A stretch of 64,000 bases of DNA, taken from contig NZ_JBBODF010000001.1 in NCBI RefSeq assembly GCF_038002825.1, forward strand, positions 1,054,001 to 1,118,000, given 5' to 3'. The stretch comes from Paenibacillus sp. FSL H8-0048 (GTDB lineage Bacteria > Bacillota > Bacilli > Paenibacillales > Paenibacillaceae). Under the pieces are notes generated by a model. The model searched no databases. It saw nothing but the letters and a program-made list of their open reading frames with translations, and was not told the origin of the DNA. The translations under genes were made by a program, and so were the position numbers. This document shows positions 50,751-55,282 of the stretch, one piece after another (position 1 is the stretch's first letter; every line of letters begins with the position of its first letter).

Positions 50751-51266
50751 TTATTCTTGCGGAATGGACTTCACGGCATGATGTTTCAGTTTGGCTGTCG
50801 CCCGGCTTAACAGGGTTCCAACCACCGGCGGCCTCACGCCCAGTTCCACTGCGATCTCTGCGTAGCTGTAGCCCGAATACTTAAGCAGTAAGGCCTGCCG
50901 GTCCCGCTGAGGAAGATCCTCGAGCCAGCTCCGTACATCCTCCTGATCCAGCTTGCTGAGGACCACTTCTTCCCCTGTAGGAGCAGAAGCCCCCGCATCA
51001 TATAACAGTTCCTGCTTGTCGATCAGACGCCGCTCTCTCACCCGCTGGTTCAGATAATCATATCCGATCCGCGTAAGCACTCTGTGCAGCCACGCCCCCA
51101 GAGCCGCCGGATCATCCGGCGGATTTCTGTAGAGTCTGATAAAAACCTCCTGTGCCAGATCATCGGCAGCACTCTCGTCCCGCACCAGTGCCGCCAGCTT
51201 ACGCCGCACACTCGGGTAATGCTCATAAAAGATTATTTTGTATGGGTCTGATTCCGGAATATTCAT
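50751..51266 (-). CDS. ECF-type RNA polymerase sigma factor (SigX-like)
   Basis: 171 residues. Sigma region 2 (YEHYPSVRRKLAALVRDESAADDLAQEVFIRLYR) and region 4 (LPQRDRQALLLKYSGYSYAEIAVELGVRPPVVGTLLSRATAKLK) are both clear. It resembles Bacillus SigX in type. AAGGAGG lies before the ATG, and a TGATAC-N17-CGTC promoter upstream suggests self-activation. The downstream genes are a putative anti-sigma factor and an ABC exporter. Confidence 0.9.
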   Translation of the reverse strand: MNIPESDPYKIIFYEHYPSVRRKLAALVRDESAADDLAQEVFIRLYRNPPDDPAALGAWLHRVLTRIGYDYLNQRVRERRLIDKQELLYDAGASAPTGEEVVLSKLDQEDVRSWLEDLPQRDRQALLLKYSGYSYAEIAVELGVRPPVVGTLLSRATAKLKHHAVKSIPQE

Positions 51267-51494: not shown

Positions 51495-52772
51495 CTATTC
51501 CTTGTCATAATTCTCGTCGCCAACCTGGATGCTGCCGTCATCATGCTGGAAGAATAGAGAGCTGGATACTTTGCCGTTGCCAAAAGCGAATACGATGGTA
51601 TTGCCGCTTATCTTGTAGGAACCGCTGTCTGAGCCTCCTGCCCCGCCTGTTGTAGGTGCCCCGCCCTGGACGGTACCCAGCATCAGGTTATCGCTGGTGA
51701 AGGTACCATTGCTATTCAGCACTAGCGTCCGTGTCCAGGAGGTCGATCCGGCTGATATCCCGGCCAGCCCTTGGAAGCCGCGGTGAACATAAGTGCCGCT
51801 TAGGGTCAGCCCGTTCTTGACCGTCTTGACCCGGCTGAGCTCAATATCGTCAATATGCAGCTTGCCGGATTTGACCGCAATATCATAGCTGTCCCCGTTA
51901 CTTAGCTTCAGCTTACCGCTTTGTATCGTGTAAGTCTGGCAGCCGTCACGCGAGCAGTTGATTGTCTCCGGTCCGCCTTGCTTTGGAGCATCCACAACCA
52001 CTTTATTACCCGGCAGGAAGCTGATGATATTCCAGCACATCCCGCCGCATTCAAACCCGTCGTAGTCCGGGCTGAAGCCGTAGTACATTCCCTGCAGATT
52101 GCTCAGATTTACCTGGTCCGAAGCAGCTGGCTTGTAGGAACCGTCTCCGGCCGGAGCATTCGGGACAGTCCCTGGAGCCGGCGGCTTAGGCTGTGGCGGC
52201 TGGCTGGCGATCTGCTCGTCATATACTTTTTTGAATTCGGCAATTTGCTTGTCAACTGCCGCCTTCGCCGTTGCTTTGGTCAGGCCGTTCGCCGCCAGAT
52301 AAGGGTCGGTGTAGACGAGAATCTGCGGCTTATACGGGTTCCATGCCACCAGTGCCTGAGTGGACTCCCCGACGAAGCGGAGCGGGACCATGGTGTAGCT
52401 GTCTAGGATTGTTGGCGCTTGCAAAAGTTGAACACTGGTGCCATTGACAGTAGCCGTCTTGCTGCCTATCTTCATTACTATGGTCAGGCCTTCTTTCGTA
52501 CCGGTTACCGTCTGCTGTGCGGGATTCCAGCCTACCTTAAGACCCATCGCCTCGAACAGCGGACGGAACGGAACCATTGTTGTCCCTTTATCCAGCAATG
52601 GAGGCTTCTCAAAAGACAACGGTTTATCGTCCAGATTGACCTCGATCGTTTTGCCCGCTGCCGGCGAAGCTTCCGCGTGGTCCACTATACCCAGTGCCAC
52701 GGCTACTCCCAGCCATAAGACTGCCGTCCACACGCGCCAGATCACAGGTCCGGTCATTCGCCTTTTTCTCAC
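51495..52772 (-). CDS. Secreted stalk-domain protein
   Basis: 425 residues. Signal peptide about 1-35 (IWRVWTAVLWLGVAVALGIV, cleavage near HAEA). Stalk domain (copper amine oxidase N-terminal-like) about 38-160: KPPLLDKGTTMVPFRPLFEAMGLKVGWN and TMVPLRFVGESTQALVAWN. Then a helical stretch, a Pro-rich linker (QPPQPKPPAPGTVPNAPAG) and a beta-rich C-terminal domain with two Cys pairs (CGGMC; CSRDGC). GTG at 52772 is preferred over a longer frame to 52856 because AAAGGGTGG lies upstream and the signal peptide then begins at residue 1. Function unknown. Confidence 0.8.
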   Translation of the reverse strand: MRKRRMTGPVIWRVWTAVLWLGVAVALGIVDHAEASPAAGKTIEVNLDDKPLSFEKPPLLDKGTTMVPFRPLFEAMGLKVGWNPAQQTVTGTKEGLTIVMKIGSKTATVNGTSVQLLQAPTILDSYTMVPLRFVGESTQALVAWNPYKPQILVYTDPYLAANGLTKATAKAAVDKQIAEFKKVYDEQIASQPPQPKPPAPGTVPNAPAGDGSYKPAASDQVNLSNLQGMYYGFSPDYDGFECGGMCWNIISFLPGNKVVVDAPKQGGPETINCSRDGCQTYTIQSGKLKLSNGDSYDIAVKSGKLHIDDIELSRVKTVKNGLTLSGTYVHRGFQGLAGISAGSTSWTRTLVLNSNGTFTSDNLMLGTVQGGAPTTGGAGGSDSGSYKISGNTIVFAFGNGKVSSSLFFQHDDGSIQVGDENYDKE

Positions 52773-52891
52773 CCATACCCACCCTTTCCCCAGAACAAAC
52801 AGATTTTTAAGTTTATAACCGGTATGGCCCCCGTTCAAACAGAATTTTTCAATCAAATGTCAATCCTATGACTTCTAGACTTCACAGAAAT

Positions 52892-52915
52892 AGCCCTACC
52901 GCAAGCGGTAGGGCT
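52892..52915. other. Perfect hairpin upstream of the Met-rich gene
   Basis: AGCCCTACCG-CAAG-CGGTAGGGCT, a perfect 10-bp stem, not followed by a T run on either strand. It could be a transcript stabiliser or a regulatory hairpin, about 100 bp before the Met-rich gene. Confidence 0.5.
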
Positions 52916-53012
52916 GATAGCTGCTGAATATCCATAAAAAGGTTGAACTCACCAACAAAATATAGTAGTTTATTAGGTGTAAGCTATTATAAATTGAAAG
53001 GTGGAGCTAGTG

Positions 53013-53225
53013 ATGGAACAGAAATCTATGGAAATGATGATGAACATGTGTATGGAAGACATGATGTGCAAGATGAAGAACATGAAGATGTGCATGGAAA
53101 CCATGACCGAAATGGGCATGATGAACATGGATATGGATAAGATGATGACTCAAATGCAGCAGTGCGACGAAATGATGACTATGTGTATGACTATGATGCG
53201 TAATGGAATGGAAATGTCCAAGTAA
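53013..53225 (+). CDS. Methionine-rich mini-protein
   Basis: 70 residues, of which 30 are Met (43%) and 5 are Cys; Met-x-Met, Met-x2-Met and Cys-Met patterns dominate (EMMMNMCMEDMMCKMKNMKM). The start ATG 53013 has GGTGGAG 6 nt upstream. A helix-heptad-like spacing of Met is possible. Met/Cys-rich sequences of this kind bind Cu(I) or Ag(I), as in CopA/CusF-type or sperm-like methionine pools. No known family recognised. A hairpin AGTGAAT/ATTCACT follows at about 53254. Function unknown; metal binding or an oxidant sink is inferred. Confidence 0.75.
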   Translation: MEQKSMEMMMNMCMEDMMCKMKNMKMCMETMTEMGMMNMDMDKMMTQMQQCDEMMTMCMTMMRNGMEMSK

Positions 53226-53375
53226 AGTCCAAGCACACGACGACAAGCCTGAAAGTGAATCTGCGAAATTCACTCTTCAATGTGCATTTCATGGCTGAGC
53301 AGACTAACTGCATGCCATTTTCTTTCATTATATTATCTCTATCTCTACCTAATCATATCTCCGATTATTTCTTCT

Positions 53376-53690
53376 TTATCTACTCTTGATATACCGCGCT
53401 TGAAGCTGCTTGGCCACGTGAATCCGCTCCATCTTCAGCTCCCAAATCTGCTCTTTCCACAGACTGCTATCCGGTGTATCCTCTTGCTCTCTCAGCTTAT
53501 CGAATAATTGCATCAGCAATACGTTAATATCATCGAACCGCGTCCATAGCGCTCTCACACTATCCACTTGTTTCTTTTCTTCGGCAAGCTTCTCATAGTT
53601 CTTCAATTTCTCCAGGAGATCAGCCTGCCACTGTTCATCGTTAATTGCCTTGGCATAATTCAGCAAATCCAGATAATCATCTATTGACAA
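53376..53690 (-). CDS. Hypothetical protein
   Basis: 104 residues, mostly helical and charged (DYLDLLNYAKAINDEQWQADLLEKLKNYEKLAEEKKQ), with a C-terminal WELKMERIHVAKQLQARY helix. TTG at 53690 has AAGGAG about 9 nt upstream; the longer frame to 53780 would cover the terminator of the PTS operon and is not favoured. Not recognised; it may be a small cytoplasmic coiled-coil protein. Confidence 0.65.
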   Translation of the reverse strand: MSIDDYLDLLNYAKAINDEQWQADLLEKLKNYEKLAEEKKQVDSVRALWTRFDDINVLLMQLFDKLREQEDTPDSSLWKEQIWELKMERIHVAKQLQARYIKSR

Positions 53691-53760
53691 AGGTACCGAC
53701 TCCTTTTTCTTTATACCAAGTATTATACTCGGTATTGTATATATTGCAATAGCCTGCTGC

Positions 53761-53795
53761 AAAAAACAGACACCCGTCAAGGATGCCTGTCTGGA
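53761..53795 (-). terminator. Terminator of the PTS operon
   Basis: On the minus strand CAGACAGGCATCC pairs with GGGTGTCTG and is followed by TTTTTT, 33 bp after the IIBC stop codon. Confidence 0.85.
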
Positions 53796-53827
53796 AACGC
53801 TATTCTGCTCTGCTGATATTCTTCAAG

Positions 53828-55282
53828 CTACATCAGCTTCTTGATATCATCCTTGAGCTGCTCTGATTGCGGTCCGAACACAATCTGTACCGCACCCTGT
53901 CCAAGCCGCATCACACCGGAAGCACCGAGCTGCTTAAGCGCGGAGTCTTTAACCGCCTTGTCATCATTTACATTAAGGCGCAAGCGGGTGATACAGGCAT
54001 CGATGCTGCGGATGTTCCCAGGACCACCGATGTTCTCCAGAATCTTGGCGGCTCTGGAAGAGGACGGCACCGTTGCTGCGCTCTTGGACAGATCAATCAG
54101 GTCCTCTTCCATCTCATCCTCGCGTCCAGGGGTTTTGAGGTTGAACTTGACGATAATGAACCGGAACAACAGATAGTAGAGGACGAAGAAGCCAAGCCCG
54201 ACCGGAATCAGCACCCACGCATTGGTGGACTGCTTCATGTTAAGCAGATAGTCAATGAGCCCGGCAGAGAATCCGAACCCGAGCTTCACATCCAGCACAT
54301 ACATCAGGAATCCGGCAAAACCGGTCAGTAAGGCGTGTACCAGATACAGCAGCGGTGCAAGGAACATGAAGGAGAATTCCAGCGGCTCCGTGATCCCTGT
54401 CAGGAAGGAAGCAATTGCCGATCCGATGAAGATGGACGCGACCATTTTGCGTTTCTCCGGTTTGGCTGTGTGAATGAACGCCAGGGCTGCACCCGGCATA
54501 GCGAACATCATAATCGGGAAGAAGCCTGTCATGAACATTCCCGCAGTTTTATCTCCGGCGAAGAAGCGTGTCAGATCTCCGTGAACAATATCCCCGGCAG
54601 CGTTCGTGAAATCACCGAGCTGGAACCAGGCGATGGCGTTGATGACATGATGCAGGCCGAACGGGAGCAGCAGACGGTTAGCCGTCCCGAATACAAATGC
54701 ACCTGCCCCGCCGAGACCGACAACCCAGGTACCGAAGTCACTGATGACATCCTGAATCGGGCTCCAGATCATACCGATCAGCACTGCGAGAATCATGGTA
54801 GTGATAGCTGTGATAATGGGTACGAAGCGTTTGCCTGCGAAGAAGCCGAGCCAGTCCGGCATTTTAATATTATGATATTTCTTGTAGAGGTAAGCGGCCC
54901 AGGCTCCGGCAAAAATCCCGCCCAGCACGCCCATATTCAGCTTCACATCATCGGCGATGAACGGCATTTGAGCTGGGAGCACCTTGAGAATACTGTCCAG
55001 CACCTGATAAGCAATGAGGGCAGACAGCGCGGCAACCGCATCGCCTGCGAACCCGATCGCTACCCCAATTGCAAAAATCAGCGCCAGATTACCGAATATC
55101 GCGCCCGCACCCGCATTCAGAAAAGGAGCCACATACTGGTTGAGAAATCCGCCCACGGTACTGCCCAGATGGAAATCCTTCTCATAATTAATCAGTCCGA
55201 ACCCTTGCAGAATCGCTGCCGCCGGTAAAGTTGCCACTGGAAGCATCAGAGATTTCCCTAACTTCTGTAGAAAAGCCAACAT
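53828..55282 (-). CDS. nagE: PTS transporter EIIBC, N-acetylglucosamine type
   Basis: 484 residues. IIC membrane domain about 1-385 with the segment HHVINAIAWFQLGDFTNAAGDIVHGDLTRFFAGDKTAGMFMTGFFPIMMF, close to what I recall of NagE/NagP, and TEPLEFSFMFLAPLLY. IIB domain about 405-484 with phospho-Cys C430 in IDACITRLRL. It transports and phosphorylates GlcNAc (or glucose); the motif favours GlcNAc. Last gene of the glcT-IIA-IIBC operon; the IIA is encoded separately upstream. Confidence 0.88.
   Translation of the reverse strand: MLAFLQKLGKSLMLPVATLPAAAILQGFGLINYEKDFHLGSTVGGFLNQYVAPFLNAGAGAIFGNLALIFAIGVAIGFAGDAVAALSALIAYQVLDSILKVLPAQMPFIADDVKLNMGVLGGIFAGAWAAYLYKKYHNIKMPDWLGFFAGKRFVPIITAITTMILAVLIGMIWSPIQDVISDFGTWVVGLGGAGAFVFGTANRLLLPFGLHHVINAIAWFQLGDFTNAAGDIVHGDLTRFFAGDKTAGMFMTGFFPIMMFAMPGAALAFIHTAKPEKRKMVASIFIGSAIASFLTGITEPLEFSFMFLAPLLYLVHALLTGFAGFLMYVLDVKLGFGFSAGLIDYLLNMKQSTNAWVLIPVGLGFFVLYYLLFRFIIVKFNLKTPGREDEMEEDLIDLSKSAATVPSSSRAAKILENIGGPGNIRSIDACITRLRLNVNDDKAVKDSALKQLGASGVMRLGQGAVQIVFGPQSEQLKDDIKKLM

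Follow-up and report, generated by a model that had tools for sequence, protein, structure and literature searches.

A Conserved Methionine-Rich Protein Gene of Paenibacillaceae and Its Convergent Partner: a Two-Gene Module with a Possible Soft-Metal Role

The 64,000-nt stretch of Paenibacillus sp. FSL H8-0048 DNA analysed here (contig NZ_JBBODF010000001.1; hereafter the window) carries at 53013..53225 (+) a gene for a 70-aa protein with 30 methionines (42.9%) and 5 cysteines, predicted to fold as a helical hairpin. The gene is real, conserved, and under purifying selection, and it forms half of a two-gene module with a convergent partner gene on the opposite strand. The Met-rich protein was best explained as a cytosolic buffer for soft metals of the Cu(I)/Ag(I) type, a reading in which we infer the metal binding and to which we give a probability of about 0.45.

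Translation of 53013-53225 (+) confirmed the 70-residue frame of the preliminary description with its 30 Met and 5 Cys. The window copy contains no F, W, Y, L, I, V, A, P, or H, and it reaches 23 Met per 50 residues, with a maximum of 8 in the other open frames of at least 50 codons in the window. The ribosome-binding site and the following hairpin that had been reported with the frame were both present, the former as GAAAGGTGGAG at 52996..53006 (+) and the latter as two structures at 53255..53273 and 53289..53320. A GGAGG/GGTGG-like site was also found 5' of the start in the relatives' copies listed. An in-frame GTG lies upstream at 53001; the conserved start of the gene is the ATG at 53013. 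A promoter-like element (TTGAAC, a 17-bp spacer ending in TATAG, then TAGTTT) was located at 52943..52971 (+), and a strong 10-pair terminator-like hairpin (52892-52915, minus strand) lies between it and the start of the upstream gene. Of 60 loci, 36 have the generalized element (TTG, spacer ending in TATAG, TAnnTT) in their upstream 130 nt, compared with a background rate of 0.007 per 130 nt; this regular expression was composed after inspecting the sequences, and a few of the 36 matches are at odd distances.

Relatives of the Met-rich protein were found in 36 of 100 genomes of the genus using the protein as query. Profile A1 (31 rows) detected relatives, complete or partial, in 107 of 394 family genomes, spread over 11 of the 19 genera; a few of the 107 genomes hold partial copies (G061, G093, G300, and G390). 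The same profile matched 86 of 296 genomes drawn from the order and 20 of 398 drawn from the class, 4 of the latter lying outside the order; the family, order, and class draws overlap. In the three families to which the four outliers belong, the gene was present in 1/12, 2/11, and 2/34 genomes, the last count including one weak match (E 0.0063) with a stop. This sporadic occurrence outside the order suggests horizontal transfer. Named hosts among loci found by another route were Paenibacillus piscarius and P. silagei, the locus of the latter holding a C-terminal remnant of the protein only.

Median dN/dS was 0.06 for 34 genus copies (267 pairs with usable pS; L031, which shares a contig with L003, and the truncated L038 were left out). 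Mean conservation at the 32 Met-majority columns of these copies was 97.5%. Low-complexity ATG repeats may produce a chance frame or act as an RNA element only, and the internal repeats and the in-frame internal deletions of two loci (L113 and L153) fit such an account, to which we give almost no weight. Conservation is full-length in 11 of 19 family genera with the start and ribosome-binding site kept, and the low dN/dS is accompanied by synonymous drift; a chance ORF was thus rejected on the profile matches across the family and the dN/dS. The preliminary description would have been refuted by an absence of homologues or by loss of the frame in them; homologues proved many and in the main keep the frame, although several genomes have lost or truncated the gene.

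The same description had pointed out that the opposite strand reads as a His-rich frame, so that on paper one segment encodes two metal-binding-like compositions. The His-rich frame exists, CAT being ATG reversed, but the two-strand idea was not supported. Synonymous variation was seen at 10/10 invariant non-Met columns of the 34 genus copies. At all ten it is the third codon base that changes, which on the other strand is the first position of a codon; the antisense residues are thus apparently not preserved, and an antisense His-rich gene was rejected on this ground. The antisense frame is a trivial by-product of ATG/CAT.

Composition was examined in alignment A2, comprising 57 diverse members (L112, L113, L098, and L102 were left out). 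Methionine made up 45.1% of residues overall (range 29-50%), which places the family in the Met-rich compositional class (>20% Met, >50 residues), and cysteine 6.5% (2-8 per protein). Leu, Ile, Val, Phe, Trp, and Tyr together accounted for 41 of 4028 residues (about 1%), and histidine for 0 of 4028. At the 34 Met-majority columns, 214 of 1924 cells were non-Met. The raw replacements were T 47, C 42, K 25, G 18, A 18, and S 18, with aliphatic or aromatic residues in only 24 of the 214 cells (I 11, V 7, L 5, F 1). Six of the nine possible single-base substitutions in ATG lead to L, I, or V, and measured against this the three residues are under-used on raw counts; Cys is common at Met columns although it needs more than one base change. 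Redundancy weighting gave a softer picture (T 52, K 35, I 34, C 31, S 24, A 23, L 10.5, V 8), with Ile about equal to Cys (34 vs 31). Most of the Cys cells are at positions 27 and 58 in one genus and therefore represent few independent events. Positions M24, M44, C51, D52, and E53 were invariant in 57/57 members. Taken together, the Met/Cys pattern and the scarcity of Leu/Ile/Val substitution appear to favour sulfur chemistry over plain packing, and either soft-metal binding or oxidant scavenging by the protein is plausible on this pattern.

The raw excess of Cys (42) over Leu, Ile, Val, and Phe combined (24) at Met columns counts in favour of the soft-metal buffer in particular. The fixed M24, M44, C51, D52, and E53 could serve as ligands or core, which a mere sink need not have. 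A His-free protein suits a Cu(I)/Ag(I) site better than one for Cu(II) or Zn. Pulling the other way are the variable Cys count of 2-8, the near equality of weighted Ile and Cys, the concentration of most Cys cells in two columns of one genus, and the frequent loss of the gene.

AlphaFold2, run on A2, predicted a helical hairpin with helices at 2-33 and 41-69 (mean pLDDT 92.5, pTM 0.69); all folding predictions were of single chains. The confidence of this predicted hairpin counts for the soft-metal buffer. At 100 degrees the polar moment is 0.199 for helix 2, which is amphipathic, and 0.097 for helix 1, which is barely so. Met occupies every side of helix 1, and this suggests burial in an oligomer or complex. 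No signal-peptide pattern was evident by eye at the N-terminus. The absence of a known domain, claimed from the sequence at the outset, was borne out for the Met-rich protein by Pfam, NCBIfam, PHROGs, and PDB sequences. Across the 57 members there was no convincing Pfam or NCBIfam model match, PHROGs had no family, and PDB sequences gave no usable match, the lone single-sequence match (E 0.033, chain C6HR1_4r) being set aside. Foldseek returned no PDB match for the model.

Neighbours were clustered at 60 Met-rich loci (L058-L117). The sole neighbour recurring throughout was a helical protein of about 104-120 aa on the opposite strand, the other neighbours differing between genera. In the window, this partner gene lies at 53376..53690 (minus strand) and encodes 104 aa from a TTG start, convergent to the Met-rich gene, with its ribosome-binding-site region GGAGTCGGTACC at 53692..53703 on the minus strand. 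Its predicted structure consists of three helices (pLDDT 90.5). Using partner profile A3 (51 rows), the partner was found convergent downstream in 55 of 60 loci with 59-368 bp between profile matches. It is upstream and in tandem with the Met-rich gene in L094, outside the order, and missing in 4 of 60 loci (L093, L097, L115, and L095, where the contig ends). At a match cut of E ≤1e-15, a strong partner match was present in 107/107 Met-rich family genomes vs 101/287 genomes without a detected Met-rich gene (Fisher p 4e-38 over the 394 family genomes; the p value is nominal, related genomes not being independent). In L033/L115 (G074:C1), a second Met-rich copy was observed from which the partner is gone, with the partner's palindromic promoter still 103 nt downstream.

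The constancy of the partner gene supports the soft-metal buffer, and it also bears on another account in which Met-coated helices form a flexible greasy surface that binds the partner or a hydrophobic client in a regulatory or chaperone complex. Such a surface has been proposed for the Met-rich signal-peptide-binding domains. This account draws on the pairing in 107/107 genomes, convergent in all but five loci with one of these in tandem, and on a helix 1 that looks buried (0.097 vs 0.199 for helix 2). We nevertheless consider it rather unlikely: a binding surface should accept Leu, Ile, and Val, yet these are rare at Met columns (24/214 cells even with Phe included), and 101 genomes in which no Met-rich gene was detected retain the partner, which is therefore independent of it.

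The partner had no confident family in Pfam or NCBIfam. DUF7667, for which we know of no function, came nearest, though its similarity is weak: of 51 partner members, 18 matched it at E ≤1, the lowest value being 0.00085, and the window partner had no DUF7667 match at E ≤1. The N-terminal motif of the partner recurs in a 47-aa protein (L150 1471-1614, plus strand) and at the C-terminus of a 135-aa Cys-motif protein (L151 1504-1911, minus strand), both in the same genome; the 47-aa paralogue matched DUF7667 at E 0.00059 and 20.4 bits (cut-off 27). The motif appears to be a small helical module. PDB fold matches of the partner model all had E >0.5 and were not used. No defence or phage families were found for the window partner, and the partner was absent from phages. 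It was found in one plasmid record (Paenibacillus cellulosilyticus, 2.7 Mb), which has no annotated features there. The viral_contigs set contained no relative, and a Met-rich relative used as query had no match among plasmids, where the BLAST low-complexity filter may hide one. A phage or plasmid origin was rejected on these searches.

The partner promoter (TTGCAA, 16-bp spacer, TATAAT) lies at 53722..53749 (minus strand). Around its -10 is a 23-bp palindrome, ATACCAAGTATTATACTCGGTAT, at 53713..53735, a likely operator, with the -10 inside ATACCGAGTATAATACTTGGTAT. Allowing up to 5 mismatches, 53 of 60 loci have the palindrome near the gene pair; of the 23 partner-only loci examined, 21 have it upstream of the partner (L162 and L167 do not). 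A repressor site would be its natural reading, and it is not known to match any named operator. The exact palindrome occurs once in the genome, and a regulon through it was rejected on this single site.

The promoter-like element of the Met-rich gene reads as sigma-A type with its 17-bp spacer, and a sporulation-sigma motif was not established. This weighs against bulk production during sporulation, whether of a spore or coat component or of a methionine/sulfur reserve; for a sulfur store, fixed Met positions are also not needed. The named hosts are Paenibacillus, a genus of known spore formers, which suits a spore component. A precedent is offered by Csp3 of B. subtilis, described in the available part of one article as up-regulated late in sporulation and supplying copper to the coat laccase CotA (PMC9484137). 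We regard the spore or reserve role as highly improbable.

Two hairpins follow the Met-rich gene. The first, GTGAATCTGCGAAATTCAC (53255..53273, plus strand), was recognised by eye in most genus copies and in a looser form in other genera. The second (53289..53320, plus strand) has two stems, a GA/A internal loop, and a T-rich tail, and was described by RNA model R1, whose only match in the window is this one (39.9 bits). Its pattern is GGCA-GA-GCAG-loop-CTGC-A-TGCC; the inner stem hardly changes between copies, and the outer stem varies. In alignment A4, 7 of 10 pairs showed changes on both sides. A4 holds 41 hairpins, 40 chosen for at least 4 outer pairs and the window copy added by hand (from 44 references, two matches judged to be chance, in L107 and L108, and the near-duplicates L080 and L113 were dropped), so the outer-stem covariation is partly circular. 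The strand and place controls of a structure scan are free of this circularity: 44 sense and 0 antisense structures were found near the gene, compared with 9 sense and 12 antisense elsewhere in 546 kb. R1 matched 52 of 60 loci, most of which also built the model, with 62 of 63 matches on the sense strand of the gene at 13-173 nt downstream. In 41 genus genomes, matches above 33 bits occurred once per Met-rich locus or its remains, and the rest were below 30 bits; G074 has two Met-rich copies and two matches, and G075, G093, and G029 hold remains. A regulon through the 3' hairpin was rejected, as strong matches were at the Met-rich locus or its remains only (strict filters). Rfam gave no match at E ≤1 in window positions 52700-53900. 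The second hairpin is terminator-like and dedicated to the Met-rich gene.

The Met-rich gene has been lost repeatedly while the partner stays. In-frame relics of 18 and 37 residues were found in L153 and L113, a 14-residue tail in L145, and a truncated copy in L112. Both in-frame relics begin MEKMCM and re-enter the frame further downstream, an arrangement that recombination between repeats rich in ATG would produce. Hairpin scars (E ≤0.1) were detected at 10 of 43 partner-only loci, a set that includes one second partner copy (L166) from a genome with a complete pair as well. In L183, the Met-rich gene is wholly lost, the partner is broken too, and the 3' hairpin is left. This repeated loss suggests a protein that is useful but dispensable. 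In L161 and L191-L193, two tandem 3' hairpins stand behind the partner with the Met-rich gene missing.

No metal-handling gene recurred among the neighbours of the 60 Met-rich loci; a copper gene neighbourhood was sought in their neighbour clusters and was not found. This, and the fact that no copper-type operator was identified, count against the soft-metal buffer. The upstream gene in the window (51495-52856, minus strand) is presumably a stalk-domain protein of the copper-amine-oxidase N-terminal type. It was rejected as copper evidence since few of the examined loci have it next to the module (neighbour cluster 17). The gene convergent to the partner in L160 and L167, and by eye in L162, encodes a lipoprotein whose Cys/His/Met motif is CuA-like; this may be a copper hint, but one confined to a single genus and to partner-only loci, and it was set aside as too thin.

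A sigma-factor-like gene adjoins the module in several genus loci (neighbour cluster 4, 8 of 60 loci; 50751-51266, minus strand, in the window). It is also found beside the lone partner in L131, L139, L165, L166, L203, and L204. With the module or the lone partner it occurs in many genus genomes, so that this is a single chromosomal site with and without the Met-rich gene. This neighbour recalls the sigma/anti-sigma neighbours of BcrX and speaks for an oxidant sink, in which peroxide or hypochlorite would oxidise sacrificial thioethers and MsrA/MsrB with thioredoxin would reduce them again, making the protein the cytosolic equivalent of MrpX/BcrX. The composition could be explained by such chemistry: in the available parts of two articles, H2O2 and hypochlorite readily oxidise Met-rich proteins, which Msr then repairs (PMC3514235), and the Met-rich BcrX and MrpX are proposed or described as HOCl scavengers (PMC8315932). 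A sink should let its methionines drift in position, yet the Met columns are conserved at 97.5% and C51-D52-E53 are invariant. The sigma neighbour is absent from most other loci, and no Msr neighbour recurs; an Msr cluster was not recognised by eye among the recurring neighbours of the 60 loci, not all of which are annotated. We consider the oxidant sink, too, rather unlikely.

The soft-metal buffer best meets four features together, namely sulfur over hydrophobics, fixed positions, no His, and no evident export signal. Mechanistically, two or more hairpins may associate into a helical bundle lined with Met and Cys. Such a bundle would hold Cu(I) (or Ag(I)) via thioether and thiolate sulfur and would act in the manner of Csp3, a copper storage bundle lined with Cys, except that most of the binding would fall to methionine. 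The partner could be a regulator, loader, or recipient of the Met-rich protein, and the palindrome on its -10 would allow control of the partner by a repressor, which might be the partner protein. The 3' hairpin would end or stabilise the Met-rich mRNA.

As a combination of two proteins, a palindromic promoter, and an RNA hairpin, the module appears to be new; its chemistry may yet turn out to follow a known type. The partner gene, its palindromic promoter, and the conservation of the RNA hairpin are additions to the preliminary description. In open-licence PMC full text, no article identifiable as dealing with the Met-rich family was found. In its boldest form, the proposal is of a new protein class: a self-assembling, His-free, Met/Cys-lined cytosolic bundle with methionine as universal hydrophobic and ligand residue, reversible Cu(I)/Ag(I) storage, a dedicated partner that senses or unloads it, and a locus-only operator and 3' RNA element, altogether a soft-metal (or redox) module unrelated to Csp, metallothionein, or MrpX. 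We hold this to be possible but doubtful. Proteins of about 45% Met that exclude other hydrophobics offer a test of how far the amino-acid alphabet can be narrowed and of a methionine-only core. If Cu(I) is bound, the protein would be the methionine equivalent of the copper stores built on cysteine, with a bearing on the question of copper pools in the bacterial cytosol; as an oxidant sink, it would represent a strategy of the periplasm transferred to Gram-positive cells and, apparently, to their cytosol. The module is present in about a quarter of the family genomes searched (107/394), yet it has no Pfam, NCBIfam, or Rfam name, and its extreme composition may conceal the family from filtered homology searches.

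Three known systems are closest, each compared here on the available part of the sources. Csp3 is a cytosolic, sulfur-lined helical bundle holding Cu(I) in bacteria (PMC10155185, PMC9484137). It shares with the Met-rich protein an apparently cytosolic location, an all-helical structure, and a high sulfur content, and Bacillus has one Csp3. Csp3 is a Cys-lined four-helix bundle, whereas the Met-rich protein is a 70-aa predicted two-helix hairpin dominated by Met with 2-8 Cys, and no sequence or fold match between the two was found. MrpX/BcrX are likewise small and very Met-rich, with conserved partner genes adjoining (PMC8315932). They carry MXKDX repeats, which are absent from the window protein by reading and from the A2 consensus, and are linked to a methionine sulfoxide reductase pair and an ECF sigma system (PMC8315932). 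MrpX is described as periplasmic (PMC8315932), whereas the Met-rich protein lacks an evident signal peptide and has a different partner. On the features compared, it belongs to neither Csp nor MrpX. Very Met-rich proteins are already known as a compositional class of up to 33% Met, in which the hypothetical proteins MRP1-MRP7 range over 7-33% Met and FeNos of Nostoc has 33% Met and 12% Cys (PMC3514235). MRP1-MRP7 resemble the present family in their high Met, FeNos also in being Cys-rich, and were soluble when made in E. coli (PMC3514235). Their Met content is lower than that of the Met-rich family, the likeness drawn here is one of composition, and the available part of that article describes no module (PMC3514235).
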